A DNA stretch of 64,000 nucleotides. Source: Streptococcus cristatus AS 1.3089 (GTDB taxonomy: Bacteria; Bacillota; Bacilli; Lactobacillales; Streptococcaceae). The notes under the pieces are model-generated. The model made no database searches. It was not told where the DNA came from and was given only the letters and a program-made list of their open reading frames with translations. A program made the translations under genes and the position numbers. Shown here piece after piece: positions 2,537 through 55,395 of the stretch. The DNA lies in NCBI RefSeq assembly GCF_000385925.1, contig NC_021175.1, positions 751,501 to 815,500 on the forward strand, given 5' to 3'. The number at the start of each line of letters is the position of its first letter. Positions within the stretch are counted from its first letter, which is position 1.

Positions 2537-2567
2537 GAAGTAGATAAAAATTTTGAATGAGGTAGCC

Positions 2568-3839
2568 ATGAATGAAATCAAATGCCCCAACTGTGGGGAG
2601 GTTTTTACAGTTAATGAGAGTCAGTACAGTGAGCTTTTGTCGCAGGTGCGGACAGCGGAGTTTGACAAGGAAATCCATGCTCGGATTGAGCAGGAGCTGG
2701 CTTTAGCAGAGCAAAAATCCCAGAATGCCCAACAAGTCCTCCTATCGCAAAAAGAACAGGAAATTAGCAAGCTTCAAAGTCAAATTGCTCAGTTTGAGAC
2801 CCAGCAGGAGTTGGCTAAGAAAGAGGCGGAGCAGGCAGCCAGTCTTCAGTTACAAGAAAAAGACAAGGAAGTCCAGCAACTAGAAAATAAGCTGACAACT
2901 CTGCGCTTAGAGCATGAAAATCAACTTCAAAAGACCCTGTCTGCGTTGGAAAAAGAGCGAGACGAGGTTAAGAACCAGCTAGTCTTGCAAGAAAAGGAAG
3001 CGGCTCTGGCTCAGACCTCGCTCAAAGAGCGCTATGAGGTAGAGCTGCGGCAGAAAGACGAGACCATAGAGTTCTACAAGGATTTCAAGGCCAAGCAGTC
3101 CACTAAGATGATTGGTGAGAGTTTGGAACAGCACTGTGAGTACGAGTTTAACAAGAATCGTATGGCCATGTTTCCACGAGCGGAGTTTGGCAAGGACAAT
3201 GATGCCAGAACAGGCAGCAAGGGTGACTACATTTACCGTGAGGTGGATGAAAATGGTATAGAAATCCTCTCCATCATGTTTGAGATGAAAAATGAAGGCG
3301 ATGAGACGGCGACCAAGAAGAAAAACGAGCATTTCTTCAAAGAGCTGGATAAGGATCGGCGGGAGAAAGGCTGTGAGTATGCCATTCTAGTGACACTTCT
3401 TGAGGCTGACAGCGAGCTCTACAATTCGGGTATTGTCGATGTGTCATATGCCTATGAGAAGATGTATGTTATCCGGCCTCAGTTCTTCCTACCCATGATT
3501 ACCCTCCTGCGTAATGCTGCGCTTAACTCGCTCCAGTACAAGCAGGAACTAGCCTTGGTGCGGGAACAGAATATTGATATTACACATTTTGAGGAAGATT
3601 TGGATGCCTTTAAAGTAGCTTTCGCCAAGAACTATCAGTCTGCTTCGACCAACTTTGGCAAGGCCATCGAGGAGATTGACAAGGCCATCCGTCGAATGGA
3701 AGAAATCAAGAAATTCCTGACGACCTCTGAAAACCAGCTGCGCTTAGCAAACAACAAACTGGACGATGTCTCTGTCAAGAAACTGACGCGCAAAAATCCA
3801 ACCATGAAAGCTAAGTTTGAAGCACTTAAGAGAGAATGA
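2568..3839 (+). CDS. DUF2130 domain-containing coiled-coil protein
   Basis: A 423-residue protein of the DUF2130 family, whose biochemical role is not established. The N-terminus has a zinc-ribbon-like IKCPNCGEVF motif with only one CxxC pair. Residues ~30-190 are Glu/Gln/Lys-rich heptads, clearly coiled coil. Residues ~195-390 form the DUF2130 core (GESLEQHCEYEFN, GSKGDYIYRE, EMKNEGDETATKKKNEHF). The acidic/Lys pattern EMKNE recalls restriction-endonuclease-like folds, but that is only a suggestion. The ATG at 2568 follows a GAGG site; an in-frame TTG at 2553 is less likely. The last 77 bases are duplicated at 7047-7123, on the far side of the SIR2 gene. Confidence 0.85.
   Translation: MNEIKCPNCGEVFTVNESQYSELLSQVRTAEFDKEIHARIEQELALAEQKSQNAQQVLLSQKEQEISKLQSQIAQFETQQELAKKEAEQAASLQLQEKDKEVQQLENKLTTLRLEHENQLQKTLSALEKERDEVKNQLVLQEKEAALAQTSLKERYEVELRQKDETIEFYKDFKAKQSTKMIGESLEQHCEYEFNKNRMAMFPRAEFGKDNDARTGSKGDYIYREVDENGIEILSIMFEMKNEGDETATKKKNEHFFKELDKDRREKGCEYAILVTLLEADSELYNSGIVDVSYAYEKMYVIRPQFFLPMITLLRNAALNSLQYKQELALVREQNIDITHFEEDLDAFKVAFAKNYQSASTNFGKAIEEIDKAIRRMEEIKKFLTTSENQLRLANNKLDDVSVKKLTRKNPTMKAKFEALKRE
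3763..3839 (+). repeat. 77-bp direct repeat, left copy (3' end of DUF2130 gene)
   Basis: This stretch, encoding the last ~25 residues (DVSVKKLTRKNPTMKAKFEALK...) and the stop of the DUF2130 gene, recurs at 7047-7123 with about eight base differences. The two copies bracket the AT-rich SIR2 gene, as target-site or homology repeats bracket an inserted segment. Confidence 0.85.
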
Positions 3840-3850
3840 GGTTAGAATTT

Positions 3851-6800
3851 ATGGAAAATACTATATATTATGAAAAGCTAGTAAATGATTTGACGGAAGC
3901 TATAAACCAACAAAAATTAGTTATTTTTGTTGGTGCTGGAGTTTCTATTTCACAAGGATATCCCAACTAGAATAATTATATAGAACATCTTATTAAATAT
4001 TGGCAGGGGCAGGTTTTAGCCGAAAGTAGTGAAAAAAAACTTGGCAGAGAACACCATTTGATTTTTGATTTAATTAGTAAATCTGATATTACTAATAAAC
4101 GCAAAGTTGATTTAGTTAACTATGAATTAAAAAATGTTTTTGGTGAAGACTTTGAAAAAAGACGGTTAGACTTTGAAAAAGGGTATTTCAAGAATTTACT
4201 TCCATATTCGTTGATTAATCAGACATTGGAATCTTTAGCAAGCCTAAACGCAATATTTATAACTTCAAATTATGATTATGAGATTGAAAACCATGCTAGA
4301 CGTTTAAAAAATACTGTAATAACAATCAATGATTTAAATGAATTTAAGAATAGTAAAAAAGGTAAGTTAAAACTTGGAGATGTTCTACATATTCATGGTA
4401 CCCCTGATTGTGACGTTAAGTATTTTGTTAGTTCATCAGCAGATTATTCAAAAGTGTATTTGAGAGATAGGAATAATTTTGATGGTTTAGTAAGTTGGTT
4501 TGAGGAGGCAAAACCAACAGTACTATTTATTGGTGCTGGTCTTGAAGAAGATGAAATTTTATCATTACTTCGTGAAGGTAGTCATAATTATGCATTAATG
4601 AAATCAGAACATACAGGTAACCCAAAAGTTGATGAGCATTATAAAAAAATTGCTGAAGATTTTTTTTAATTCAGAAAATCATACTCAGATTATATGGTAC
4701 GGAAATGAGTTTAGTGACTTGCCAAATTTTATCAAAAAACTTGTTTCAAGTATTGATAAAAAATTAGGAACACACGAGTTTTACAAAGAGTGGAATAATC
4801 TTTTAAATCCCTCATTAAAACAAGAAGATTACAATAAATCATTAGATAGCATTTGTGGTGATTTTAAGTATCTTAATTCTCTTTTGGATAAAGTTATTGA
4901 AAATAATAATGATACTCTAAATGAATTATTGTTGAGCGGTGTATTACAGGGAGAAACTATAAAGGCAATTGAGTCAAGCTCATTCTCTATATTTTGGAAG
5001 TTTATTGTTAAAAATATTGAAAAGTTAAGTAATAATGATTGGAAAAGTATCTATGATATTATTTCTAAAGGAAATCAAAGTTGTTTTATAAATGATTTGT
5101 ACATTATCTATAAGAAAGCTAAGGAAGAGAAAATTTTCGACAGTAAGCAATTAAATGAACTGAGAAGAATTATTGCAAAAGATAGTAATGTTATTAACTC
5201 CAGTTTTAATCAAGATAAAACTCTTTTGGGATACTGGTTTGTAGATACTTTTGTACAACAGAATAGCTATTTATATATTGAAGATGAGAGCAAGATAACA
5301 ATCAACCTTGTACCAGAGTGTATTGAAAGATTGACTGAAATTTTTAATGCATCATCAATTTTTCGTTACTATACTTTAAAAGAAATCTTAGAACACAATA
5401 ACATTGAATTATTGTATAAACTTATAAAATCAAAAAAATTGTTAGTAGAAGGTAAAGAATTTTTAGAAGGTGTTCCTGAAAAATTATTAAGTACTAGATT
5501 GGTTCAAAGGCTACTTGTTCAAATTGACAATGAAGATGGTTTAAATTTGAAGCTAGTAACTAAATTAATAAATAATATTGATTTTTCTGACATCCACTTT
5601 GGAGAAGAATTAAATGCATTTATTCATAAACACAAAAGAATTATTATAACTGAAAATTTAGAAATTCCAGAGGAGCCTTATCGAAATTGGATATCTTCGA
5701 TGGAGGGAGGCTTTGTTTCACAGTTTTCATTTTTAACTCAAGAAAATCTTGTAGAGTATGATGGACCTAAATTATTAAAGGTATTAGTTAACGCAAAAAA
5801 TGAACAAAAAGGTTCTTCGTTTTTGAAGAAAAGACTATAAGCGAAACTGAAGATTTCTTGATTAGTGTTTTAAAAGAATCAAATGAACTATCTAGAAAAG
5901 TTTCTAATTTGCTAGAAAATCATATTGAAGATTTATATCTAAAATATAAGAGACTTTATGTAGAAATTATCACTACTTCCGAAATGGAGGCAGAATTAAG
6001 AAATTTCGTTAGGGAAAAATATTTAGAAAAATTTAATTGTGAGAGTTTTGATGAAAGTGATCGAAAATTCTTTAAATACTATATAACACAACAAAATGAT
6101 GAAGAATTAATTTTTGAAAAATTACTTAGTATTGATGTAAATAAACTTTCGGCTTTAAGAGATGACAATGAGCAATTAGATATGTTTCACTATATAAATA
6201 GTGAAATGGGATTATATTTGCAATGTTTGATATCATTATTTGATAATCACTCAAATTATAAACCTGGAATTATTCAGAAAATAGATTCTATAGAGGATCC
6301 TGAGTATAAAGAACTTTCTCAAGGCATTTTGTTAAATGAATACGATCCTAAAACAATTAATGTAACCTATCATACATTTTTAGGGTTTAGCTACTCTCAT
6401 AAGGTGATTTATGCAAAGGTTGCAAATATATTCAAGGGTGTTGTTGAAAATATTTTAAAAGAAAACATTAAAGACAATCAAATTCTTGATAGAGTTTATC
6501 TAGTTGCTTTAGAGAGTGTAGATCCAACTATTGATTCATTTTCTTTATCAAAGAATAACTTTAGTCAAATGATAAACATCATTTTTACATCAGAGTATGA
6601 ATTTAGATATTCTAAACAATGGTTACAAGAATTGTTCAAACACGACTCAACAGCAAACTACTTAGAAACAATTTCTAATTTATTTTATAGAGATAATCTT
6701 AATAAAGATAGACTAGCTTTGTTTATTAAGGAGTTCAATGATTTTATATCCAAATATAAATATAAATTATCTTTACGTATGATTAGTTATATTCTAAAAC

Positions 6801-7027
6801 AAGAAGATTCTAAAAAATTCGATTTGATTAAAAATTATTTTTTTGTGTTACTTGAGAATGATAAATTAGAAAATGATCTTTTCTATTTAGAGACTATAAA
6901 AAATATTCTTCCTTTGTTGTCTTTAGAAGAGAGAATTAATGTATTACAAAATATTCAAAAACAGAAAAATTGTCCTCCACCAGAGATTGAGGAGCTGCAA
7001 AGAATTGTTAATGACTTAAATTCATAA
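3851..7027 (+). pseudogene. SIR2-domain large defence-type protein, broken by one stop and two frameshifts
   Basis: Read through its lesions, this is one ~1059-codon gene. The first ~300 residues have all the hallmarks of a SIR2-like NAD-binding/hydrolase domain: FVGAGVSIS, FITSNYDYEIEN, LHIHGTPD and LFIGAGLEEDEI. The remaining ~750 residues are helix-rich with no motif I recognise, an architecture like the defence-associated sirtuins (DSR1/DSR2), which deplete NAD on phage infection. Lesions: an in-frame TAG at 3968-3970, where SGYPNW-type homologues would have Trp; a T8 tract at 4662-4669, where T7 would keep frame; and a T5 tract at 5820-5824, where T6 would restore it. The base composition is far more AT-rich than the flanking genes. 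No promoter of its own was recognised. The DSR identification is inference from architecture. Confidence 0.8.
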
Positions 7028-7040: not shown

Positions 7041-7046
7041 GATTGA

Positions 7047-7123
7047 ACGATGTCTCTGTCAAAAAACTGACGCGCAAAAATCCTACTATGAAAGCTAAGT
7101 TTGAGGCACTTAAAGGAAAATAA
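7047..7123 (+). repeat. 77-bp direct repeat, right copy (DUF2130 3' remnant)
   Basis: A start-less fragment that in frame would encode NDVSVKKLTRKNPTMKAK... and a TAA at 7121-7123. It matches the end of the DUF2130 gene at 3763-3839 apart from about eight bases. It directly precedes the GNAT gene and probably marks the right border of the inserted SIR2 segment. Confidence 0.85.
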
Positions 7124-7124
7124 T

Positions 7125-7571
7125 ATGACTGTCAAGATTCGAAAGGTAAATGAGACGGACATGGAGAAACTTCTTCCTCTCTATGAAGCCTTAGGCTATC
7201 CAGTAGATAAAGATGAACTGCAAAGTAGGCTTAAGAATATTCTTGCTAATCCAGCTTACGGTTGCTTGGTTGCTGAGAAAGAATCTCAGCTTCTTGGATT
7301 TATCGGCTATGTCAAGCTTCAGTTTTTTGAGACAAGCGACTCATATTATAGGATTTTGGCACTGTCAGTCAGCCCAACTGCTAGACGGGAAGGAGTTGCG
7401 ACAGCGCTTATGGATAAAGTAAAGAAGTTGGCGACAGAGAATGGTGCCAAGGCATTGGCTTTGAACAGTAGCCTGACGGATGTTAGACAGGCTGCTTATC
7501 AATTTTACGAAAACTATGGCTTTGAGAAAGTAACAACTGGTTTTGCAATGAATTTAGAAAATAATGAGTAA
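7125..7571 (+). CDS. GNAT family N-acetyltransferase
   Basis: A 148-residue single-domain GNAT acetyltransferase, predicted to transfer an acetyl group from acetyl-CoA to an unknown substrate. Visible motifs are the central LALSVSPTARREGVATALMDKV acetyl-CoA loop (R/Q-x-x-G-x-A type) and the C-terminal AAYQFYENYGFEKV block. The start is the ATG at 7125, with AAAGGA eight bases upstream; the longer reading from 7101 lies inside the duplicated DUF2130 tail and is rejected. truB follows after three bases, so they probably share a transcript. Confidence 0.88.
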   Translation: MTVKIRKVNETDMEKLLPLYEALGYPVDKDELQSRLKNILANPAYGCLVAEKESQLLGFIGYVKLQFFETSDSYYRILALSVSPTARREGVATALMDKVKKLATENGAKALALNSSLTDVRQAAYQFYENYGFEKVTTGFAMNLENNE

Positions 7572-7574
7572 AGA

Positions 7575-8453
7575 ATGAACGGAATTATCAACTTAAGAAA
7601 AGAAGCGGGCATGACCTCGCATGATGCGGTATTTAAGCTGCGCAAGATTTTAGGAACGAAGAAAATTGGCCACGGGGGTACCTTGGATCCAGATGTAGTC
7701 GGGGTACTTCCGATTGCTGTGGGCAAGGCGACGCGCTTAGTCGAGTTCATGCAGGAGGAAGGCAAAGTTTACGAAGGTGAAATTACTCTGGGCTGCTCAA
7801 CAACGACAGAGGATGCTAGTGGAGACGTCCTTGAGCGGACGCCAGTGACGGAACTTTTAGAAGAGGCTCTCATCGATCAAGTGATGGAGTCCATGACTGG
7901 TGAGATTCGCCAGACTCCGCCCATGTACTCTGCAGTCAAGGTAAATGGCCGCAAGCTTTATGAGTATGCAAGAGCGGGTCAAGAAGTGGAGCGGCCAGAG
8001 CGGCAGGTTACCATCTATAGTTTCGAGCGTACCAGTCCGATTTCCTATGAAGATGAACAAGCCCGTTTTCGCTTTCGAGTCAAGTGCAGCAAGGGGACCT
8101 ATGTCCGAACTCTGTCTGTTGATTTAGGAGCTAAGCTGGGCTTTGCCAGTCACATGTCCCAGCTAACAAGGACTTCTTCAGCAGGTATGAGCTTGGATGA
8201 TGCTTTGACCTTGGATGAAATAGCGGAGCGAGTATCAACGGAGGATTTCTCCTTTCTACAGCCTCTGGAGTTGGGGACAGGTGATCTACCAAAGATTGAA
8301 CTAACGGAAGAACAGCTCGAAGAAGTGCGCCACGGTCGTTTTATTCTCATTGAAAATGCCGAGAATATCTTAGCAGCTTTTCATAAAGGCAAGCTCATTG
8401 CCATTTTAGAGAAAAGAGAAGAATATTACAAACCTAAAAAAGTTTTTCTTTGA
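7575..8453 (+). CDS. truB: tRNA pseudouridine-55 synthase (TruB)
   Basis: Converts U55 of the tRNA T-loop to pseudouridine. The 292-residue protein starts with the typical [19 protein letters not shown]. It contains [15 protein letters not shown], whose aspartate (Asp38) is the family nucleophile. [16 protein letters not shown] is the second conserved block, and a C-terminal extension follows. It begins three bases behind the GNAT gene and ends in a clear terminator. Confidence 0.96.
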
Positions 8454-8736: not shown

Positions 8737-11700
8737 ATGGGACAAGACTGGAAGAAGATAGAAAGGCAACGTTTTACGATTCGTAAGACGAGAGCATGGG
8801 GAGCATGTTCTGTTTTTCTAGGATCAAGTATTTTCTTTCTAGGAGGGGGAGTTGCAAGTGCACAAGAAGTTAGTCCTTCTGCACAAGACCAAGCACCTCA
8901 AGTAGCAGAAGCTGCTAGAGTTTCAGATGAAAAAGAGTCTGAGAAACCGGCAACTGAAGCGCAAGCCGAGCCTGAAAAGAATGCTGCGTCAGTAAGTGCA
9001 GGTGTTCAAGCAACTGAAGCTAAGGAACAAGCTGCGCCTAGCACTGAAGAAGTAGCTAAAGCAGAAGAAGCAGCTGTTTCAAAAGACGAAAAGTCAGAAG
9101 AAACAAGTGCTCCGAAAGAAGCTAAAGCAGAAGAAAAGGCTGAGCCAAAAGAAGAGAAAATAGAAGCAAAAACAGCAAGTTCTGAAACTAATGCAGCCAC
9201 ACAACCTAAGCGTTCAGGCACATCAGGATTCAGAAGTGTTAGTGGTACATCAGGATTCCGAAATACTGGTGCTGCTCGCCAAGGATCTGACTATACTGTT
9301 ACTCAAGATGGTAATCTAGCTACAGTTCAAGCTAATGCCTTGAAAACTCAGCTGGATAGAGCAGCGTCAGAGAACTTGCCAGTTACACCGAACCAGCTTA
9401 GAAATTTTGGAACCGCAACAACTGACGAAGAAAGACGCAGATTAGAACGTCAAGCAGCTGATCTTCAAAATGCTGAAGCTCAGGCAATGAATAAAAAAAT
9501 CTCTGATTACTTGACGGCTAAACAAAGAGCTCAACAATTAACAGGTAGAGAAGGAAGCTTGCAACAAATTGCTCCTCAAAACCTCGTTTTCTCTGATGAG
9601 CCAAATGCAACAGCTAAGATTAGGCTGGCACAAGGAGACTGGTTTGTCAAAGACAGTACGCTCACATCTCGAAATCAATATGTTCGTGAAGCTTTGGATA
9701 GTCGAAGCTACAGTGAGTGGCGAGACGGGACAACTACTCAACCGAATGCAGTTATCACTAGAGCCGATACAAGCCAACCGGCAGCAGAGCGAATCATCAA
9801 GGATCAAACAGATGCTTACTACATGGTTCATACGCAAGTTGGTAGAACTACAACAGTAGAGTACACCTTGCACAACTCATTTGCAGGTGGTCGACCTATT
9901 ACGAAAGCTATTGCTAGATATACGCCTAAGAAGAGTTCTGCTTATGATGATAGTATGGTCATGGCTATCCATAAAGACCCAACTATGACAGTTTGGAATG
10001 GATCCAGCTATGATCGTAAAGGAACTGGTAACCAATTGCATATGGAATGGGAATTCTATTATGCGGATGGCACCAAGGTAGACTTTGGCAGAACACCAGG
10101 TGTTGTTTCTTTCGCTTCACGTAACCACCACGGGAATGATATTTACGCTGAAATTTATGGTAATTTGAGCTCAAATATGCAGAATGTACAAATTGTAGGT
10201 TCTTCTATCGTTCCACAGGCAAATGGTTGGTACTATGCAAATGGTAAGAACAACTCTTATAAAGGCCAAACTGAATATCAATGGGACCAACAAGGTAATC
10301 CAAATGAATTCTGGGGAGCGGGTGCTGCAAAAGTTACAAGTGGTACATCATTGAGCTTTGATATTGCTACCACTAACCCTGGTCAGCACTGGCCACGTCC
10401 AATTCGCCAATGGTTCTCATTTAATACCAACGTAAAAGCGAATAACGTCGTAACTAACCCTAATTTGACTTATACTCCTGCAGCATATGTCAATGAAGTT
10501 CCAGCACCAGAACCAGAAAAATCTTATGACAGATTTGTCATGGATATTCCACATAATGTCAGAGTCGTAGATTATGAGAATGCCACTCCAGATCAAAAAC
10601 GCGCCTTTGATAATCAAACTGGTTCTCAGATTGTTTACCAACAAGGTAAAGACGGACAGGTTATTGTTGTAGGACCAAAACCAGAAAACCTAAATGACGT
10701 ACCAAATCCTAAGTTTACAGCTCAAGAACTTGAGACACTTAAAAATGGTGGAACTGTAAGAGGATTTAAAGGACACAATTACGTTGATCCTGTAGATACC
10801 ATCATGGTTGTCAAACGTAATGCGGGACCAACTGGGCCTAAGGGTGATAAAGGCGCAACTGGAGCCACAGGTGCAACCGGTGCAGCAGGACCAAAAGGCG
10901 ATAAAGGCGCAACTGGAGCAACTGGAGCCACCGGTGCAGCAGGACCAAAAGGTGATAAGGGTGCTACAGGCGCTACAGGAGCCACCGGTGCAGCAGGACC
11001 AAAAGGTGATAAGGGTGCTACAGGCGCAACTGGAGCGACCGGCGCAGCAGGCCCGAAAGGTGACAAAGGCGCAACTGGCGCTACAGGCGCGACCGGCGCA
11101 GCAGGACCAAAAGGCGATAAGGGCGCAACAGGTGCTACAGGCGCGACCGGAGCTAAAGGTGAAGATGGTAAGCCATCATTGGCTCAAGTCGTAGACAACA
11201 ACGACGGCACACATACTGTTAAAGTTGGTCTTGATAAGAACGGCAACGGCCAGCTCGATCCAGACGAAGTAACCTCATCTACAATCGTCAAGGACGGTAA
11301 GGATGGTAAGTCTCCACTAGCTAAAGTAGTCGATAACAACAATGGTACCCATACTGTTCAAGTCGGTCTTGATAAGAACGGTAATGGCGAGTTGGATCCA
11401 GATGAAGTGACATCTTCAACTATCATCAAAGATGGTAAGGATGGAAAAGCTGGTGCTACAGGCGCGACCGGAGCTAAAGGTGAAGATGGCAAGCCATCAT
11501 TGGCGCAAGTCGTAGACAATAACGACGGTACTCATACTGTTAAAGTCGGTCTTGATAAGAACGGCAACGGTCAGTTGGATCCAGATGAAGTAACCTCATC
11601 TACCATCGTCAAAGACGGTAAGGATGGTAAGTCTCCACTAGCTAAAGTTGTCGATAATAACAACGGTACCCACACAGTTCAAGTCGGTCTTGATAAGAAC

Positions 11701-14700
11701 GGTAATGGCGAGCTTGATCCAGATGAAGTGACATCTTCAACAATCATCAAAGATGGTAAGGATGGAAAAGCTGGTGCCACTGGTGCCACTGGAGCTAAGG
11801 GTGATAAAGGTGAAACCGGAGCAACAGGTGCTACCGGAGCTACAGGCGCGACCGGAGCTAAAGGTGAAGATGGTAAGCCGTCATTGGCTCAAGTCGTAGA
11901 CAACAACGACGGTACTCACACTGTTAAAGTTGGTCTTGATAAGAACGGCAATGGTCAGTTGGATCCAGATGAAGTAACATCATCTACTATCGTTAAAGAC
12001 GGAAAAGATGGTAAATCTCCATTAGCTAAAGTAGTCGATAATAACAACGGTACCCACACAGTTCAAGTCGGTCTCGATAAGAACGGTAATGGTGAACTTG
12101 ATCCAGACGAAGTAACATCTTCAACTATCATCAAAGATGGTAAGGATGGAAAAGCTGGTGCAACTGGCGCCACAGGAGCAACCGGAGCTAAGGGTGATAG
12201 AGGTGAAACTGGAGCCACCGGCGCAACTGGTGCCAAAGGTGAAGATGGCAAGCCGTCATTGGCGCAAGTCGTAGACAACAACGACGGTACTCACACTGTT
12301 AAAGTTGGTCTTGATAAGAACAATAACGGCCAGCTCGATCCAGACGAAGTAACCTCATCTACCATCGTTAAAGACGGTAAGGATGGTAAATCTCCACTAG
12401 CTAAAGTTGTCGATAACAATAACGGTACTCATACTGTTCAAGTCGGTCTCGATAAGAACGGAAATGGTGAGCTTGATCCAGACGAAGTAACATCATCTAC
12501 AATCATCAAAGATGGTAAGGATGGAAAAGCTGGTGCTACAGGTGCTACAGGCGCGACCGGAGCTAAAGGCGAAGATGGTAAGCCATCATTGGCGCAAGTC
12601 GTAGACAACAACGACGGTACGCATACTGTTAAAGTTGGTCTTGATAAGAACGGCAACGGTCAGTTGGATCCAGACGAAGTGACATCTTCAACAATCATCA
12701 AAGATGGCAAGGATGGAAAAGCTGGTGCAACTGGTGCCACAGGAGCTACAGGGGCAAAAGGAGCAGATGGTAAGCCATCATTGGCTCAAGTCGTAGACAA
12801 CAACGACGGCACACATACTGTTAAAGTCGGACTTGATAATAACGGCAACGGTCAGTTGGATCCAGATGAAGTAACTTCTTCAACCATCGTTAAAGACGGA
12901 AAAGATGGTAAATCTCCATTGGCTAAGGTTGTTGACAACAATAATGGCACACACACAGTTCAAGTCGGTCTTGATAAGAATGGTAACGGTGAGCTTGATC
13001 CAGATGAAGTGACATCTTCAACTATCATCAAAGATGGTAAGGATGGAAAAGCTGGTGCCACAGGAGCAACCGGAGCTAAGGGTGATAAAGGTGAAACCGG
13101 AGCTACAGGCGCGACCGGAGCTAAAGGCGATAAAGGTGAAACTGGAGCTACAGGCGCAACAGGTGCCAAAGGTGAAGATGGTAAGCCATCATTAGCCCAA
13201 GTCGTAGACAATAACGATGGCACTCATACTGTTAAAGTCGGTCTCGACAAGAACGGCAATGGCCAGTTGGATCCAGATGAAGTAACATCATCTACTATCA
13301 TTAAAGACGGTAAGGATGGTAAGTCTCCACTAGCTAAAGTTGTCGATAATAACAACGGTACTCACACTGTTAAAGTTGGTCTTGATAAGAACGGCAACGG
13401 TCAGTTGGATCCAGACGAAGTAACATCTTCAACAATCATCAAAGATGGAAAAGCTGGCGCAACTGGGGCCAATGGAGCTAAGGGTGATAAAGGTGAAACC
13501 GGAGCTACAGGCGCAACAGGAGCTACAGGAGCGACCGGAGCGACCGGAGACAAAAGGTGAAGATGGTAAGCCGTCATTGGCTCAAGTCGTAGACAACAAC
13601 GATGGCACTCATACTGTTAAAGTTGGTCTTGATAAGAACGGCAATGGCCAGTTGGATCCAGATGAAGTAACATCATCTACTATCGTTAAAGACGGTAAGG
13701 ATGGTAAATCTCCATTAGCTAAAGTTGTCGATAACAACAATGGTACCCACACAGTTCAAGTCGGTCTCGATAAGAACGGTAATGGTGAACTTGATCCAGA
13801 CGAAGTAACATCTTCAACAATCATCAAAGATGGTAAGGATGGAAAAGCTGGCGCAACAGGTGCAACAGGTGCCAAAGGTGAAGATGGTAAGCCATCATTG
13901 ACTAAGGTTGTAGACAATAACGACGGCACCCATACTGTTCAAGTCGGTCTTGATAAGAACGGTAATGGTCAGTTGGATTCAGATGAAGTAACCTCATCTA
14001 CCATCGTTAAAGACGGTGCAACTGGTGCTACAGGTGCAACTGGTGCGGATGGTAAAGATGGTAAATCATCATTAACGGAAGTAGTTGATAACCACGACGG
14101 TACTCATACTGTTAAGGTTGGTATCGATAAGAACGGCGACGGTAAACTTGATCCAAGTGAAGTAACGTCAACGACTATCGTTAAAGACGGCGCAACTGGT
14201 GCTACAGGCGCAACCGGAGCGGATGGTAAGCCATCATTGGCTAAGGTTGTAGACAATAACGATGGCACTCACACTGTTCAAGTCGGACTCGATAAGAACA
14301 ATAACGGTCAGTTGGATCCGGACGAAGTAACATCTTCAACTATCATCAAAGATGGTAAGGATGGTAAAGCTGGCGCAACCGGTGCTACAGGAGCGACCGG
14401 AGCTAAGGGCGATAAAGGTGAAGATGGTAAATCATCATTAACTGAAGTAGTTGATAACCACGACGGTACTCATACTGTTAAAATTGGAATCGATAAGAAT
14501 GGTGATGGTAAACTTGATCCAAGCGAAGTGACTTCAACAACGATCGTTAAAGATGGTGCAACTGGTGCTACAGGAGCGACCGGTGCAACTGGTGCAACTG
14601 GTGCGGATGGTAAAGATGGTAAATCATCATTAACTGAAGTAGTTAACAACAACGACGGTACGCATACTGTTAAGGTCGGTCTTGATAAGAACAGCGACGG

Positions 14701-15537
14701 TAAACTTGATCCAAGTGAAGTAACCTCAACGACTATCGTCAAAGACGGAAAAGATGGTAAGACACCATTGGCTGAAGTAGTTGACAATCAAAATGGAACA
14801 CACACCATTAAGATCGGATTTGATACAAATGGCAATGGTAAGCTTGATCCAGAAGAAGTAACCTCTGCTACAATCGTCAAAGATGGAAAAGACGGAAAAG
14901 ATGGTAAGGACGGCAAAGACGGAAAAGATGGTCAAAGCTCTCTTGTAACTATCGTTGAAAATGGAGATGGCACTGTTACTATTCTTGTTGGAATTGATAA
15001 GAATAATAATGGTAAGGTTGATCCTGATGAAGTAACATCTTCTACAATTATCAGAAATGGTAAAGATGGCAAGGATGGTAAAGACGGCAAAGATGGCAAA
15101 GACGGAAAAGATGGTAAAGATGGAAAAGATGGTAAGGACGGTAAAGATGGCAAGGGTGTAACCGGTCCAACTGGTCCAACCGGTCCAACCGGTCCAACTG
15201 GTCCAACTGGCCCAACCGGTCCTACAGGTCCAACCGGCCCAACTGGTCCAACCGGTCCAACTGGTCCAACCGGCCAACCGGTCCAACCGGCCCAACAAAA
15301 CCAGTAGTTCCAACTGGTCCTACTAAACCAATAAAACCAGTAGTTCCAACCGATCCAACAGTTCCGGCTAAGCCAACAAAACCTGCAGGAACAACCAAAG
15401 TAGTAGCTAAGTCAGGAACACTTCCTAATACTGGTGACAATAGCAACCCTGAAGTAGGTGTTGTGGGTGCAGGCCTTCTATCTGCTGCACTTCTAGCTGC
15501 CTTAGGTGTTTCTAAGCGAAAAGAAGAAGAACTCTAA
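8737..15537 (+). pseudogene. Giant LPXTG collagen-like adhesin with GbpC-like head, split by two frameshifts
   Basis: Read across its lesions this is a ~2267-codon surface protein. Parts in order: a YSIRK-like long signal peptide ([20 protein letters not shown], cleavage after VASA); an Ala/Glu/Lys-rich stretch; a GbpC/Spa-like head at ~280-620 ([22 protein letters not shown]); then from ~690 collagen-like G-x-y blocks ([13 protein letters not shown]) alternating with about 22 copies of a ~45-residue module holding a [14 protein letters not shown]-hand-like loop; a GKD run; a GPT run; and LPNTG (15421-15435) with a hydrophobic helix and KRKEEEL tail. A +1 shift at AAAA (13552-13555) ends the first frame at 13560. 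A missing C near 15273-15275 ends the second at 15307. The third frame, which equals the first, carries the anchor. As written, neither long product is wall-anchored. Confidence 0.85.
10831..15291 (+). repeat. Coding tandem repeats: collagen-like triplets alternating with EF-hand-like modules
   Basis: About 4.4 kb of repeats inside the adhesin gene. Two module types mostly alternate ([20 protein letters not shown]... and [19 protein letters not shown]...), each ending in [10 protein letters not shown]. They are separated by GATGAT-type collagen triplets, then pure GKD and GPT triplets near the end. The modules differ mainly at synonymous sites, which suggests repeated duplication and recombination. 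Residues D1, N3, N5, G6, D9 and E12 of the loop match the EF-hand calcium consensus. Confidence 0.85.
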
Positions 15538-42752: not shown

Positions 42753-42944
42753 ATGAAACATCACCAAACAAAGGTCTCAAGGTTGACTAGAGACGTAATG
42801 ATTTTAGATTTGATGAATACAATGGGATGGACTAGAAGCCGTGCTATTGCAGCTATTGCAGCTATTGAAGAGTTAGAGCAAACTCATCTTGTTTATTTTC
42901 CTGAAGCTGGTGGCTTGAGGTTACAAGTTGTAGGAGGATACTAA
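42753..42944 (+). CDS. Small helical protein preceding the replication initiator
   Basis: A 63-residue protein, predicted helical (VSRLTRDVMILDLMNTMGWTRSRAIAAIAAIEELEQTHLVYFPE) and possibly a small winged or ribbon DNA-binding protein. A 9-bp tandem repeat (GCTATTGCA) encodes the IAAIAAI run. Its stop overlaps the RepA start by one base, so it is coupled to the replication gene. Similar small genes precede RepA in streptococcal ICEs; the function is not known. Confidence 0.65.
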   Translation: MKHHQTKVSRLTRDVMILDLMNTMGWTRSRAIAAIAAIEELEQTHLVYFPEAGGLRLQVVGGY

Positions 42945-44068
42945 TGGCAGATATCACGATTGATCAACTAGCTACTTTAACTTTTTATCAAATTCCAGAA
43001 ATCTTTTTCACTCGTATTCAACACAATGAGAACGGCTATGTCAAATTGACTAGTTCCTACACGAGTCTTTCATCTGATGCCAAGTTAGCTTATGGGGCTC
43101 TCTATAATCGTTGTAAATTAAGTATCAGTTCATTCCAGAAGGGGAATAGAGATTACGTTGATGAAAACGGAGCGGTCTTTCTAATTTTTACAGTTTCTGA
43201 CTTGATGTTACTACTTGATAAGGGAAAGATGAAGGTTACTAAGATCAAGAAAGAACTGCAAGAACATGGTCTCTTACGGGAAGTTAGGCAGGGACTCAAT
43301 AAACCAAATAGACTTTATCTTCAGCTAGTAGATGCTAATTTAGAAATAGTGGAGCACTATTCAGCTGATGGTGAGTTACTGAAGAGGGTTAATGCTTTTG
43401 GTAAAGTTCTCTATGAAAAAGTACCCCAAAGCATTGGTAATAGCGAAAGTATCAAAAATGGACGTCCGCAAAATGGACTTCAAAACGTCCACGAAGCGGA
43501 CGGAATAAATACAGAGAGGAGTCAGACAGAGTCCTCATACGATACTAATCGATACGAGGGCGAGTCATCTTTATCTGGTTTATCAATTTCTGAAGCATTT
43601 AAAATGGGGCAACATGGTTTTCTTTCTCCTAAACTAGTTCAGAAACTCAGTTTATTTGGAAAAGATGCAAAAATTCTTGAAAATAAAATCTATCAAGCAA
43701 AACGTCAAGTTGAGAAAAATTACAACAACCTCTTAGCTGATCAGGAAATTTATGGAGAGGTTTGGCTACAGGATCTTGAACGTGAGCTTGATAAATTGAT
43801 TTTCAAAATCAAAACAGGAGAGGCTGAAGGAAAACCAATCCAGAATGTCCCAGCATACTTTTACAAAATGATGATTCGTTTTTGGAAAATGGTTCTACTC
43901 ATCGAAAAAGAACAGGGCTTTATGGAGGTATCAGGACAAAGTGAGTACGCTAGAAAATTCCCTGATGAGTGTCCTAGTCTGATTGCACGTTATTATCCAG
44001 ACAAACTATCAGAGATGAAACTGAATAAATATCTAGCTGAGTTGTCTAAGGACACAACAACATGTTAA
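42944..44068 (+). CDS. Replication initiator protein A (RepA_N family)
   Basis: A 374-residue protein whose first ~130 residues match the RepA N-terminal domain of Firmicute plasmids and ICEs (FYQIPEIFFTRIQH, YTSLSSDAKLAYGALYNRCKLS, LLDKGKMKVTKIKKELQEHGLL, a winged-helix DNA-binding unit). The C-terminal part is a variable helical segment (YFYKMMIRFWKMVLLIEKEQ). It would start replication of the excised circular element. GGAGGATAC lies before the ATG, overlapping the previous stop. It is one of the main reasons for calling this region a conjugative element. Confidence 0.85.
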   Translation: MADITIDQLATLTFYQIPEIFFTRIQHNENGYVKLTSSYTSLSSDAKLAYGALYNRCKLSISSFQKGNRDYVDENGAVFLIFTVSDLMLLLDKGKMKVTKIKKELQEHGLLREVRQGLNKPNRLYLQLVDANLEIVEHYSADGELLKRVNAFGKVLYEKVPQSIGNSESIKNGRPQNGLQNVHEADGINTERSQTESSYDTNRYEGESSLSGLSISEAFKMGQHGFLSPKLVQKLSLFGKDAKILENKIYQAKRQVEKNYNNLLADQEIYGEVWLQDLERELDKLIFKIKTGEAEGKPIQNVPAYFYKMMIRFWKMVLLIEKEQGFMEVSGQSEYARKFPDECPSLIARYYPDKLSEMKLNKYLAELSKDTTTC

Positions 44069-49723: not shown

Positions 49724-52700
49724 ATGAAATCAAATCTTGATACAAAGGCCTACGGGTCTATCAGAAAAACAAAACGTTGGGGAACCTGTGGTGTGATTCT
49801 TGGTCTAGCTGCTCTGATGGGAACGGCTCAGATTGCGCAGGCAGATGAGGTGACAGATGCAACACCAGCAGCCGTTGCCAATACCGCATCTAACTTGAAA
49901 GACTCACAGTCAGCGCCAACAGCTGAAAATCAAGCTGCTATCCAGCAAGCAAATCAAGCAGAAGGTTCTGTTTCCTTGTCTAACAACACAGGAACTCTTG
50001 AGGAGGCAGTAGCTAAAGCTCAAGCAGAAGGTGTCAACGTGGTAAAAGATGCCACAGTGGATAAAGGAGTAACAACGAATCTTGAAGCGACGCAGCAAGC
50101 TCAATCTGAAATTGCAGCAGCTCAAAACGAGCAGAAGAAGCAGATTGATCAAACGACTTCTGATTATGTGAGTCAAAAAAAGAAACAAAAACAGGTAGCT
50201 GATACAGCTATTGCTAATAATAATGCAATCAGAGCTGAGAACCAAGCGCTTCAGGCTGCGTATGAACAAGCGAATGATGCAGCTGAAAAGACTCAGGAAG
50301 AATTAAAGAAGACCAAGGAAGCGGTGAAAAAGGAATTCCCAGATGCTAAAATCACCGAAACAACGAAAAGCATTACGGTAGATCCAAATTCCAAGGCTTC
50401 TTATGATCAATATAAGCAGGCCGTGGCCGCTGTCCAAAATGCCAATCAACAAGCTGTTGCAGACCATGCTGCTAAGGTGAAGAAGGATGCTCAGGAACTT
50501 GCCGAACGCAATAAAAAAGCAGAGCAAAAGCTGCTTGATAAAAACAAAGAAATTGAGGCTGAAAATCAAAAAATCATAGATGACCAGAAACGCTATGAGA
50601 AAGAATTAGCTGAGGCTGAAAAGAATAAGGCGAAGGATGGATATGCAACTGAAGTTATCAAAAAATTCTTGATTTTTGGCCGTGAAAATACGAAGAATGC
50701 TAGACTGGTTAGTGTTTCAGGTGTGGAATATGCATCGATTAAGAAAGTAGATTCCTTGCCTGGTGACTGGACTAAACAACTTCGTCAAAATTGGGATAGC
50801 TCAATTACTAGCGATCCTTCTGAGGCTAGACGAGCTGGGAATGGGCAGATCTATGGTCGTATTCCAAGTGGTGGAACTGCTGTAGCTAGGTACGAAGGGC
50901 TAGACGCTTCTTATGACGGCAAAAAAATAGTAGCTGTGGAATATCGCTATACACCAAAATCTCCGTACAAAGTCAATGCACACTTTGAAAATGACCCTAT
51001 TCGGACTATTTCAATCGGTCATGATCAAGTAGATAAAGATATAGAAGTTGAGATGGAAGTCCGTTATTATGGTGAGGATGGGAAAGAAATTCTTCCTGAG
51101 AAAGGGAAACCATTTACGTTCTCTGCTGCTTCCATGAATTCCTATGGTGAGGGAACTAGTCACGTTGAGTTTGTCCGTTTGTCATCGGGAAATAAATTTA
51201 TTCCAATTAATGGCAGCTACGTTAAGCAGCACGGAGATTTGTTGTACTCGAAAACAAACTTGGAGGACGGAACGGTTGGAGCATGGGATTCTTCCGAAAG
51301 TCCTAGAGCTTATATTGGCGCAGGGATTATCTCTACCGAAGGACGTATTAAATTTTCATTTGGGGTGAAAGTAAATGGTCAAAATGGTACACCCTCAGAG
51401 TGGTTTGCATTTAATACAGACTTTGCGACTACAACAGTAACTCCGCCAAGTCCAAACAAAGTGAGACCGACTCCTCCATTTACTCCGGAAACTCCAAAAC
51501 CTTCTGAGTTGAATTTGCAGACGGTTGCTTTGCCTCCTAAGCCACAGCCTAAACCGGAAGAAAAGGTTCCAGGAAAGCCACAGCCGCCAACGGTACATTA
51601 CAACGACTACAAGTTGTCAGCGCAACCACAGATTAAAAAATCTGTCCAGAATGCGGATGGTGTGGATGTTGATGGGAAATATGTGGCTAAGAATAGCCTA
51701 AATAAGTGGATTCTCAACGTAGAAGCTCTTCCTGCTGGTCGCCCTAAGACGACTAGTCTGATGGCGGTTGATCCTACTCCAAGTGGCTTTAAACCTGAAG
51801 TCGATCTGATCAAGAAGGACAATCCAAATTGGGATATTGCTTTTGATCAAAACAATAAACTCACCCTTAAAGCAACAGAACCTTTGCTGAAGGCGGTTAA
51901 TGGGGATCTAAGTAAGGCTTATAAGATCGCTCCATTTGTTTATTGGGGAAGACCGCAGAATGATGCGGCCGACTATGTAAACGGCTTTGAGCTGGTAGTA
52001 AATGGCGGGAAGGATGAGGGCGGTTATACTCGCAAGAGTAATATCGTTAAAATCTCAACACCAGGGAAAAAGAATCCAGACCCTAATAATCCAAACGATC
52101 CGAAGAATCCAGATCCGACTAAGCCAAATACTCCCAAGGATCCAAACCGTACCGCAATTCAACCTGAAAAGCATAATTATAATGCCGAAGGTAAAATCGT
52201 AGATGGAAAGGCTATGGCTCCTGAAGCGACCAATCACTATGTGTCTAAAATGACTAACCTTCCATACAAGGGAGATCAGTCAGCTAAGGAAGCGATTCAA
52301 CGTGGCTTTGGTTTCATTGAGGATTATCCGGATGAGGCGGTAACTCCACTGGAAGGCCAATTCAAGGTTCGGGATGCTGAAGGAAAGGAAGTAAATGGGC
52401 TTAAAATGTACCATGTGCTTTCTAAAGATTCTTTGACTGGTTCACTGAATAAGATGGTAGAAGATTCTGGTATTTCTCCAACAGGAGCTTTCTATATGTG
52501 GGTGGCTGAGAAGCCGGAAGAATTCTATCAGGCCTATGTTAAGAAAGGGATGGATTTGTACTTCCATACCCCGATGAGAAATAAAGCTGGTTTTACTGGC
52601 GAGTACAAAAACCAGGTGCATCAGATCCAGTTCGGAAATGGTTACTATTCGAATATCGTTAAGAACCATGTTTCTATTCCAAAACCAGACAAGGTTAATA

Positions 52701-53407
52701 AGGATAAGGCTGGTACGGTGATCAATGGCAAGACCTTGACTCCAGACACCGTTAACTACTATGAAGTGAAGCTGGACTACTCTAAATATAAGGGAATTGA
52801 GCCGGATAAGGCCTTTATCAAAAAAGGTTTCTTCGGGGTGGATGACTTCCCAGAAGAAGCACTGGACATTGATCAGTCAGGAATTCAGATGCTGGATGAA
52901 GACGGAAAAGAAGTTAAAGGACTTTCTTCTAAGATCTACTCTAGCCTGGCAGAAGCACCAGAAGAGGTTCAAAAAGCATTTAAAGCTAAGAACAAATCTC
53001 CGAAGGGTGCCATTCAAGTCTTTAGCGCAGATGATCCGGAAGCTTTCTTTGAATCTTATGTTAAGACTGGAAAGGTCATTACCTTACGAGTTCCAATGAA
53101 GATCAAGAAAGAGTTTGCGGAAAAAGGTGGCGAGTATCAGAATACAGCTTATCAGATTGATTTTGGTCAGCTGTATGAAACACCAACGATCATTAATCAG
53201 GTTCCAAAACCAAATCCAGAACCAAAACCGGAACCAAAACCGGAACCAAAAACTCCTGAAGGTCGTCCTCAACAACCAATTGTTACGACAGAACGGAGCT
53301 TGCCAGCAACAGGGGAACACGCTTCTGCAGAATTGCTGCTGGCTGGTTTGGCAATGGCTGGTGCTGCTGGCTTAGTCTATGGCAAACGTAAGAAAAAAGA
53401 GGCTTAG
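49724..53407 (+). CDS. Antigen I/II family (PrgB/SspB-like) adhesin, LPXTG-anchored
   Basis: A 1227-residue wall adhesin. Parts in order: a long signal peptide (YGSIRKTKRWGTCGVILGLAALMG, cleavage near AQA); a helical A region to ~310 rich in Ala/Lys/Gln (one or two degenerate repeats instead of the usual three); a GbpC/V-like head ~320-580 (VAVEYRYTPKSPY, VEMEVRYYGEDGKE, WFAFNTDF); a Pro-rich linker; two or three C-terminal beta domains with paired blocks (GKIVDGKAMAPEATNHYVSKM, GTVINGKTLTPDTVNYYEVKL); and LPATG with helix and KRKKKEA tail. In pCF10-type elements the PrgB relative mediates mating aggregation. In oral streptococci such proteins bind salivary glycoproteins and other bacteria. 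Confidence 0.9.
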   Translation: MKSNLDTKAYGSIRKTKRWGTCGVILGLAALMGTAQIAQADEVTDATPAAVANTASNLKDSQSAPTAENQAAIQQANQAEGSVSLSNNTGTLEEAVAKAQAEGVNVVKDATVDKGVTTNLEATQQAQSEIAAAQNEQKKQIDQTTSDYVSQKKKQKQVADTAIANNNAIRAENQALQAAYEQANDAAEKTQEELKKTKEAVKKEFPDAKITETTKSITVDPNSKASYDQYKQAVAAVQNANQQAVADHAAKVKKDAQELAERNKKAEQKLLDKNKEIEAENQKIIDDQKRYEKELAEAEKNKAKDGYATEVIKKFLIFGRENTKNARLVSVSGVEYASIKKVDSLPGDWTKQLRQNWDSSITSDPSEARRAGNGQIYGRIPSGGTAVARYEGLDASYDGKKIVAVEYRYTPKSPYKVNAHFENDPIRTISIGHDQVDKDIEVEMEVRYYGEDGKEILPEKGKPFTFSAASMNSYGEGTSHVEFVRLSSGNKFIPINGSYVKQHGDLLYSKTNLEDGTVGAWDSSESPRAYIGAGIISTEGRIKFSFGVKVNGQNGTPSEWFAFNTDFATTTVTPPSPNKVRPTPPFTPETPKPSELNLQTVALPPKPQPKPEEKVPGKPQPPTVHYNDYKLSAQPQIKKSVQNADGVDVDGKYVAKNSLNKWILNVEALPAGRPKTTSLMAVDPTPSGFKPEVDLIKKDNPNWDIAFDQNNKLTLKATEPLLKAVNGDLSKAYKIAPFVYWGRPQNDAADYVNGFELVVNGGKDEGGYTRKSNIVKISTPGKKNPDPNNPNDPKNPDPTKPNTPKDPNRTAIQPEKHNYNAEGKIVDGKAMAPEATNHYVSKMTNLPYKGDQSAKEAIQRGFGFIEDYPDEAVTPLEGQFKVRDAEGKEVNGLKMYHVLSKDSLTGSLNKMVEDSGISPTGAFYMWVAEKPEEFYQAYVKKGMDLYFHTPMRNKAGFTGEYKNQVHQIQFGNGYYSNIVKNHVSIPKPDKVNKDKAGTVINGKTLTPDTVNYYEVKLDYSKYKGIEPDKAFIKKGFFGVDDFPEEALDIDQSGIQMLDEDGKEVKGLSSKIYSSLAEAPEEVQKAFKAKNKSPKGAIQVFSADDPEAFFESYVKTGKVITLRVPMKIKKEFAEKGGEYQNTAYQIDFGQLYETPTIINQVPKPNPEPKPEPKPEPKTPEGRPQQPIVTTERSLPATGEHASAELLLAGLAMAGAAGLVYGKRKKKEA

Positions 53408-55020: not shown

Positions 55021-55395
55021 TTGAAAAAAATTGGCTCAGAATTTTTAAGAGAATTTGAAACAGAAGATAGACCAATTCTATTCGGTCTAACCGCTAGAAT
55101 GATAGTCTTCTATTTGTGTTTAGTAATAGCTGTCGCAGGAACAGTTGCTATATATTTTCTTGGTTTACCTGATTGGTACATTTATCTTTGGGATGCTCTA
55201 TTTGTGGTTCCTGGGGCAATGTACGGTATGGGAATGACCAAGCGAATGCGGATTAAAGAAAAAATCAATTTCTTTTTCCGAATTCAGACTCGAAACTACG
55301 AAACTAACTTTGGAAAGGTAGGAATTTATACAAAAGATGAGTTTATTCAAAAGCAAAAGAGAAAAACTAGAAATCGCAGAAAAGAAAAAAATTGA
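55021..55395 (+). CDS. PrgI family conjugation membrane protein
   Basis: A 124-residue PrgI family protein, a small inner-membrane partner of the VirB4 ATPase. It shows FETEDRPILFGLTARMIVFYLCLVIAVAGTVA, a second helix around YIYLWDALFVVPGAMYGMGM, then a basic tail. The start is TTG at 55021 behind AAAGGAAAA; no better start exists. The last 59 bases overlap the VirB4 gene in another frame, a strong sign of coupled translation. Confidence 0.88.
   Translation: MKKIGSEFLREFETEDRPILFGLTARMIVFYLCLVIAVAGTVAIYFLGLPDWYIYLWDALFVVPGAMYGMGMTKRMRIKEKINFFFRIQTRNYETNFGKVGIYTKDEFIQKQKRKTRNRRKEKN

Follow-up and report, generated by a model that had tools for sequence, protein, structure and literature searches.

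A broken SIR2 gene behind DUF2130 in Streptococcus cristatus: probably a recently inactivated, horizontally acquired DSR-like gene

The locus

The window analysed here is a stretch of 64,000 nucleotides from one strain, Streptococcus cristatus AS 1.3089, whose genome is a single 2.14-Mb contig (99.99% complete), and all coordinates are positions in this window (Table 1). A gene for a SIR2 family protein, opened by an ATG and broken at three sites, begins 11 nt past the stop codon of a DUF2130 core gene. It is followed by a second copy of the DUF2130 3' end, a GNAT acetyltransferase gene, and a truB-like gene. Farther along, positions 42944-64000 resemble a conjugative element, with genes for a RepA_N protein (42944-44068), an antigen I/II-type adhesin (49724-53407), a TraG-like ATPase (55337-57700), and a CHAP/lysozyme protein (57711-60434).

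Table 1. Features of the SIR2 locus in the window
Feature	Position	Strand	Evidence
DUF2130 gene, 428 aa, core gene directly upstream	2553-3839	+	PF09903, E 7.7e-88
Left copy of 78-bp direct repeat, DUF2130 3' end	3760-3837	+	Sequence comparison
SIR2 gene, ATG to gene end, broken at three sites	3851-7027	+	ORFs, translation, alignment of relative's protein
GAG motif, NAD site, codons 28-30	3932-3940	+	Invariant in alignment A2
In-frame TAG	3968-3970	+	Translation; single stop within first aligned piece
Catalytic-type Asn codon, family N140	4268-4270	+	Invariant in A2; DSR2 N133, ThsA N113 (PMC11087589, in part)
Catalytic-type His codon, family H182	4394-4396	+	Invariant in A2; DSR2 H171, ThsA H153 (PMC11087589, in part)
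T8 run, first frame change	4660-4667	+	Read from sequence
T5 run near second frame change	5820-5824	+	Sequence; frame shift between aligned pieces
Right copy of 78-bp repeat, 90% identical to left	7044-7121	+	Sequence comparison
GNAT acetyltransferase gene after insert	7125-7571	+	PF00583, E 1.1e-15
truB-like gene, usual next gene at empty sites	7575-8453	+	Same gene after DUF2130 in fetched genomes

A gene broken at three sites

A preliminary description had read the locus as one gene interrupted by an in-frame TAG and by two indels with opposite signs, and alignment of a relative's protein confirms this. Residues 1-272, 265-663, and 664-1059 of that protein match frames 1, 2, and 1 of the window, so the two frame changes are opposite in sign and cancel, and the first aligned piece contains one stop. 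The TAG and the T5 run lie where they had been placed; the T8 tract does exist at the first frame change, but at 4660-4667 rather than 4662-4669, and the first open piece closes with a stop at 4667-4669. This arrangement is more than chance, since three relatives in the same place are continuous (1061 aa) and the window piece 3971-4666 matches Pfam SIR2_2 (E 1.9e-9). Because continuous relatives exist, the family is real and the window copy is dead, and no working product is expected from it in this strain. The SIR2 domain had been described as complete, which was not borne out: the TAG lies between the GAG segment and the catalytic residues, and starts downstream of the TAG lack the GAG. The suggestion of a silenced defence-type gene is supported. 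Inactivation was apparently recent, since dN/dS on the window branch (0.26) resembles that of the intact copies L003 (0.20) and L004 (0.17) in a codon comparison of three pieces (1036 codons pooled), in which dS is high and the values are rough.

Could the gene instead be intact in the living strain and broken only by assembly or sequencing error? Homopolymers do occur at two of the three lesions, and a collagen-like gene (8737-15307) is also split over two frames, but the TAG is a substitution and not an indel, and the assembly is the nearly complete single contig noted above. Moreover, 33 other ORFs of the window (37,329 bp) are open despite 195 runs of at least 5 bases, 40 of at least 6, and one of at least 8, a partial check in that the frames were chosen as open and the collagen-like gene was left out. 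Error is thus an unlikely cause of the lesions, and only a small probability is assigned to it. The collagen-like gene, which encodes a repeat surface protein in two overlapping frames (8737-13560 and 13445-15307), is possibly a second broken gene in the window.

Slippage in T runs had also been proposed to switch the gene on and off, and a phase-variable defence gene might indeed display a pair of opposite frame changes located at T runs or close by, one of these runs being a T8. However, an in-frame TAG can neither arise nor revert by slippage, and switching would require joint reversion of the three lesions. In a phase-variable (contingency) gene, a conserved hypermutable repeat alone sets the on/off state, but the long T run is not conserved among the relatives looked at and the TAG is present as well. 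Since the T run is unconserved and the TAG is another kind of change, such a switch is very improbable, and recent inactivation is the preferred reading of the lesions.

Domain content and likely function

The N-terminal part of the protein bears the hallmarks of SIR2_2-type antiphage sirtuins: the GAG motif, the NAD-site Asn, and the catalytic-type His are all kept in the window, with the TAG in between. The spacing of N140 and H182 resembles that of N133/H171 in DSR2 and N113/H153 in ThsA, as numbered in the available portion of PMC11087589. In PADLOC, the window pieces match Dsr1 (1.3e-8) and ThsA (5.4e-7), both in the SIR2 part; L003 matches ThsA in the same part (E 7.8e-12), and the split SIR2 protein of L074 matches ThsA, Dsr1, and LmuA. 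A PDB profile search matched the SIR2 part to FAM118B (5e-7) and KomC (7e-6), and FAM118, ThsA, DSR1, and DSR2 are placed in one SIR2_2 subfamily in the accessible part of PMC12700824. Pfam SIR2_2 was found in L071, L073, and L074 as well as in the window piece. Two negative results count against the best explanation offered below: at E <= 0.1, SIR2_2 was missing from L003 and L069, and PADLOC returned no match for L073. PADLOC model PDLC04168, considered as a candidate for Dsr2, is GajA instead.

For the C-terminal portion of about 750 residues, nothing was found above the curated Pfam cut-off, in PADLOC (E <= 1), or in NCBIfam; its counterpart in the split form described below has one weak PHROGs match (0.025), to a family of unassigned function. 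The layout of a defence-type sirtuin, as first suggested, is supported.

The SIR2 part aligns with that of DSR1 (columns 11-246, E 8.7e-11), and both are large single proteins, but beyond the SIR2 part there is no alignment to the full-length, 1227-aa DSR1 (L102), and PADLOC Dsr1 matches reach model position 235 of 1227 at most; homology to DSR1 thus covers the SIR2 part and not the whole length. DSR2 likewise has an N-terminal SIR2 part with Asn and His, about 1000 aa, and a large C-terminal part (PMC11087589, in the portion available), but no Dsr2-named PADLOC match was obtained (the presence of a Dsr2 model in that library is uncertain) and the PDB profile search, read up to E 10, contained no DSR2 chain. 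The SIR2 part and NAD-site residues also match Thoeris ThsA, but the C-terminal part of the window family does not, and no TIR partner (ThsB) was recognised next to the window gene, whose neighbours are the DUF2130, GNAT, and truB genes. For the same reason the locus is not SIR2-HerA, as no HerA gene adjoins among the neighbours at 2553-3839 and 7125-8453; SIR2-HerA, a different system, is reported in S. thermophilus in the available text of PMC11514479.

Since similarity is confined to the SIR2 part and the C-terminal part is unmatched, the protein is likely to pair an NADase effector with a sensor of its own, in the manner of DSR2, whose NADase activity is released by a phage protein (PMC11087589 and the review PMC10952713, both as far as accessible). 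The N-terminal SIR2 part would act as the NADase, and the large C-terminal part fused to it most likely serves to detect a phage component; sensing would release the destruction of NAD+ and thereby stop phage growth. We infer NADase activity, defence, sensing, and expression for the SIR2 family.

Relatives of the SIR2 gene

A DNA search of 284 Streptococcus genomes with the SIR2 gene (E <= 0.001) gave matches in 14, eight of them short (27-52 bases), leaving a genuine gene in six: the window's genome, G212, G100, G041, G145, and G032. The genes of G212, G100, and G041 are the continuous, 1061-aa relatives in the same location. The copy in G145 has a large internal deletion, and that in G032 is continuous (1085 aa, TTG start) and distant from the DUF2130 gene of its genome. 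Across the order, 9 of 395 sampled genomes, including the window's, match at E <= 1e-10. Continuous relatives beyond Streptococcus were found in Enterococcus phoeniculicola, E. alcedinis, Lentilactobacillus laojiaonis, G391, G493, and G414, as well as on a plasmid of E. casseliflavus; altogether, continuous relatives span 1059-1105 aa in streptococci, enterococci, and lactobacilli. The relative in G379 is broken at several places and that in G302 is cut by a contig end. L071 and L073 are both continuous, with TTG and GTG starts. Plasmid matches came from two records, one of full length, and no relatives were found among phages and IMG/VR. In the E. casseliflavus plasmid (L091, 9295-13156), the SIR2 relative begins 1 nt past a recombinase gene.

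A two-gene form, in which a SIR2 protein of 357-365 aa is encoded next to a partner of 762-763 aa, occurs in Enterococcus sp. DIV0660C, G533, and G489 (L074 7935-11286, L095 8806-12194, and L097 7947-11298), with gene ends that overlap slightly. In a SIR2-part tree with several long branches, these split forms cluster (support 96/94), and this natural division fits a modular protein.

The neighbours of some relatives suggest defence: a KAP-type NTPase (Pfam) adjoins L069, type I restriction-like genes lie beside L093, and OLD-like and reverse-transcriptase-like genes lie near L072, the last two sets read by eye. In addition, in L092 and L093, from different families, the SIR2 relative lies in the region following a gene identified by eye as sufB.

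The proposal of an undescribed sirtuin family holds in part. No model tried covers the C-terminal part, and DSR1 does not align there, but a member has already been deposited as a 'SIR2 family protein'. Titles and abstracts of the literature on DSR proteins, DUF2130, and SIR2 in streptococci yielded nothing on the family or its location, which leaves absence unproven.

Location behind DUF2130

DUF2130 is present in 271 of the 284 Streptococcus genomes, and G212, G100, and G041 share the window's arrangement of DUF2130, SIR2 gene, and repeat; at loci with the insert behind DUF2130, the flanks score 72-116 against shuffle maxima of 26-27. The DUF2130 tail peptide was likewise found in 271 of 284 genomes, with two matches in four (G000, G041, G100, and G212), and these four of 271 are the ones with a full-length SIR2 gene there (the search used a 32-residue peptide at E 0.05, which short repeats would escape). 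With a second tail found in the four alone, a role for DUF2130 as a general hot spot for tail-flanked cargo is not supported.

Of 40 fetched genomes, 11 have an empty site, in which the DUF2130 stop is followed after 10-14 nt by truB; the 40 are a non-random set comprising 20 from the top of the DUF2130 match list and 20 chosen for convenient coordinates. Among the others, one (L061) has truB at position 0, 21 have different genes ahead of it, and seven yielded no truB. G024, the fetched genome nearest to the window by truB (93.9%), has an empty site. Together with its stop and its distance from the following gene, the right copy resembles the ancestral DUF2130-truB junction. Genes read by eye between DUF2130 and truB include GNAT, hydrolase, DUF438-like, and membrane protein genes and an AAA cluster; no integrase was recognised by eye among them in the 40 genomes, and two of three slot proteins queried had no Pfam match. 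In L134 and L140, from two species, a three-gene cluster (about 557, 242-266, and 362 aa) fills this slot, and in L134 its last gene encodes an AAA ATPase and its first has no Pfam match.

Relatives located away from DUF2130 have no such repeat, which counts against the best explanation. For example, flank scores for a tail repeat at L069, L071, L072, L073, L074, and L091 were 23-34 against shuffle maxima of 25-45, with L073 alone surpassing its maximum, by one point, and no tail-like stretch scoring above 30 was found in L069, L071-L074, L091-L093, L095, L097, or L098. A tail match in L094 (score 54) was dismissed as an insert repeat, being that genome's own DUF2130 gene.

Adjacency could alternatively reflect cooperation of SIR2 and DUF2130 as a two-gene system. 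The insert stands behind DUF2130 in the window's genome, G212, G100, G041, and G145, and G414, which belongs to another family, has a relative 104 nt past DUF2130, with no repeat. Nevertheless, DUF2130 occurs in 271 of 284 genomes against six of 284 for SIR2, and the remaining relatives looked at adjoin other genes, which makes cooperation improbable.

Transfer between species

In three other species, the insert differs by 2% and the DUF2130 gene just upstream by 15-18%. Between L002 and L003, for example, identity is 97.1% for SIR2, 83.5% for DUF2130, and 81.2% for truB, and dS is 0.07, 2.28 (near saturation), and 1.18, respectively. A remnant in S. parasanguinis, compared over its first 161 codons, has a dS of 0.04-0.08 to both L002 and L003. 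By these divergences, the SIR2 gene has been transferred between species.

The edge on the DUF2130 side is sharp. In the three pairs among L002, L003, and L070, the final 400 nt of DUF2130 contain 59, 66, and 73 mismatches, against 9, 9, and 12 over the next 494 nt, and the last mismatch before the change-over lies at -9, -4, and -4 from the end of the DUF2130 stop, a precision that rests on two or so independent transfers with one genome per species. Divergence of 2% in the insert against 15-18% in DUF2130, with the change-over in the last 4-9 nt, suggests repeated and precise arrival of a single-gene cassette without an integrase of its own.

On the other side, the right copies of L002 and L003 have in common a 2-nt deletion that is absent from their own tails, and they match each other at 72/79, with the best tails found for each at 70/78 and 68/78; the shared deletion and mutual closeness indicate that the right copy moved together with the insert. 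In the window, the right copy has its best match among tails from the same clade (73/81; the window's own tail, 70/78), and matches the right copies of L002, L003, and L004 less well, at 57/70, 55/70, and 50/63. Being clade-like, it need not have been cassette-borne.

Mode of insertion

Taken as a whole, the window gene is probably a recently inactivated DSR-like gene that arrived horizontally as a single-gene insert behind the DUF2130 stop codon. An insert of roughly 3.3 kb, bearing at its far end a copy of about 78 bp of the DUF2130 3' end, would have come to lie directly behind that stop, where the SIR2 gene could be read from the DUF2130 transcript. The favoured route is single-crossover (Campbell-type) recombination between the tail copy and the host's own DUF2130 3' end, and the junction data fit such an insertion, near the stop, of a circle with one tail copy. 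With no integrase in the insert, RecA or a recombinase supplied from elsewhere would serve as catalyst.

Streptococcal ICEs with a tyrosine integrase often target the 3' ends of housekeeping genes, are flanked by repeats of 12-54 bp, and encode the integrase (PMC4701971, in the portion available). The SIR2 insert shares with them the 3' end of a core gene as target and, as is typical of ICEs and IMEs, a direct repeat built from that exact 3' end, but it differs in having one gene, a 78-bp repeat, and no integrase or recombinase, as the SIR2 gene is alone in the inserts of the window, G212, G100, and G041. The available part of PMC4701971 does not name DUF2130 as a target gene. A classic integrase crossing 78 nt before the stop is unsupported for L002 and L003, since their left tails differ as their hosts do.

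A serious rival to the cassette model is plain recombination in the flanks by double crossover, for example in natural transformation, with the precise junction coincidental and the repeat left over from a single old insertion. The genus Streptococcus includes naturally competent species, the window's right copy is clade-like, and the tract has a blurred edge on the right (identity is 88-92% within the copy, 95% for roughly the first 120 nt of truB, and lower beyond). Homology-facilitated illegitimate recombination has, moreover, been described for three competent species (PMC3240628, as far as accessible). This route may well be the true one, if somewhat short of an even chance; weighing against it, the change-over in each of the three pairs examined is confined to the final 4-9 nt of DUF2130 and not elsewhere in its 1.3 kb. 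More tentatively still, the insert may be a minimal mobile defence element, consisting of the SIR2 gene and a 78-bp target mimic without an integrase, that enters by single crossover at the DUF2130 stop, with RecA or a recombinase borrowed from the host or from another element doing the work.

Implications

These comparisons add a SIR2-effector family whose C-terminal part lies outside every model tried and which is fused, or split in three genomes of the Enterococcus family. They point to a defence-type gene that moves across species to one chromosomal position with near base-pair precision and no evident recombinase, and the window copy indicates that loss can follow quickly once such a gene has arrived. 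If the insert is indeed a minimal mobile element, a core gene would serve as both landing site and expression platform in different streptococci.
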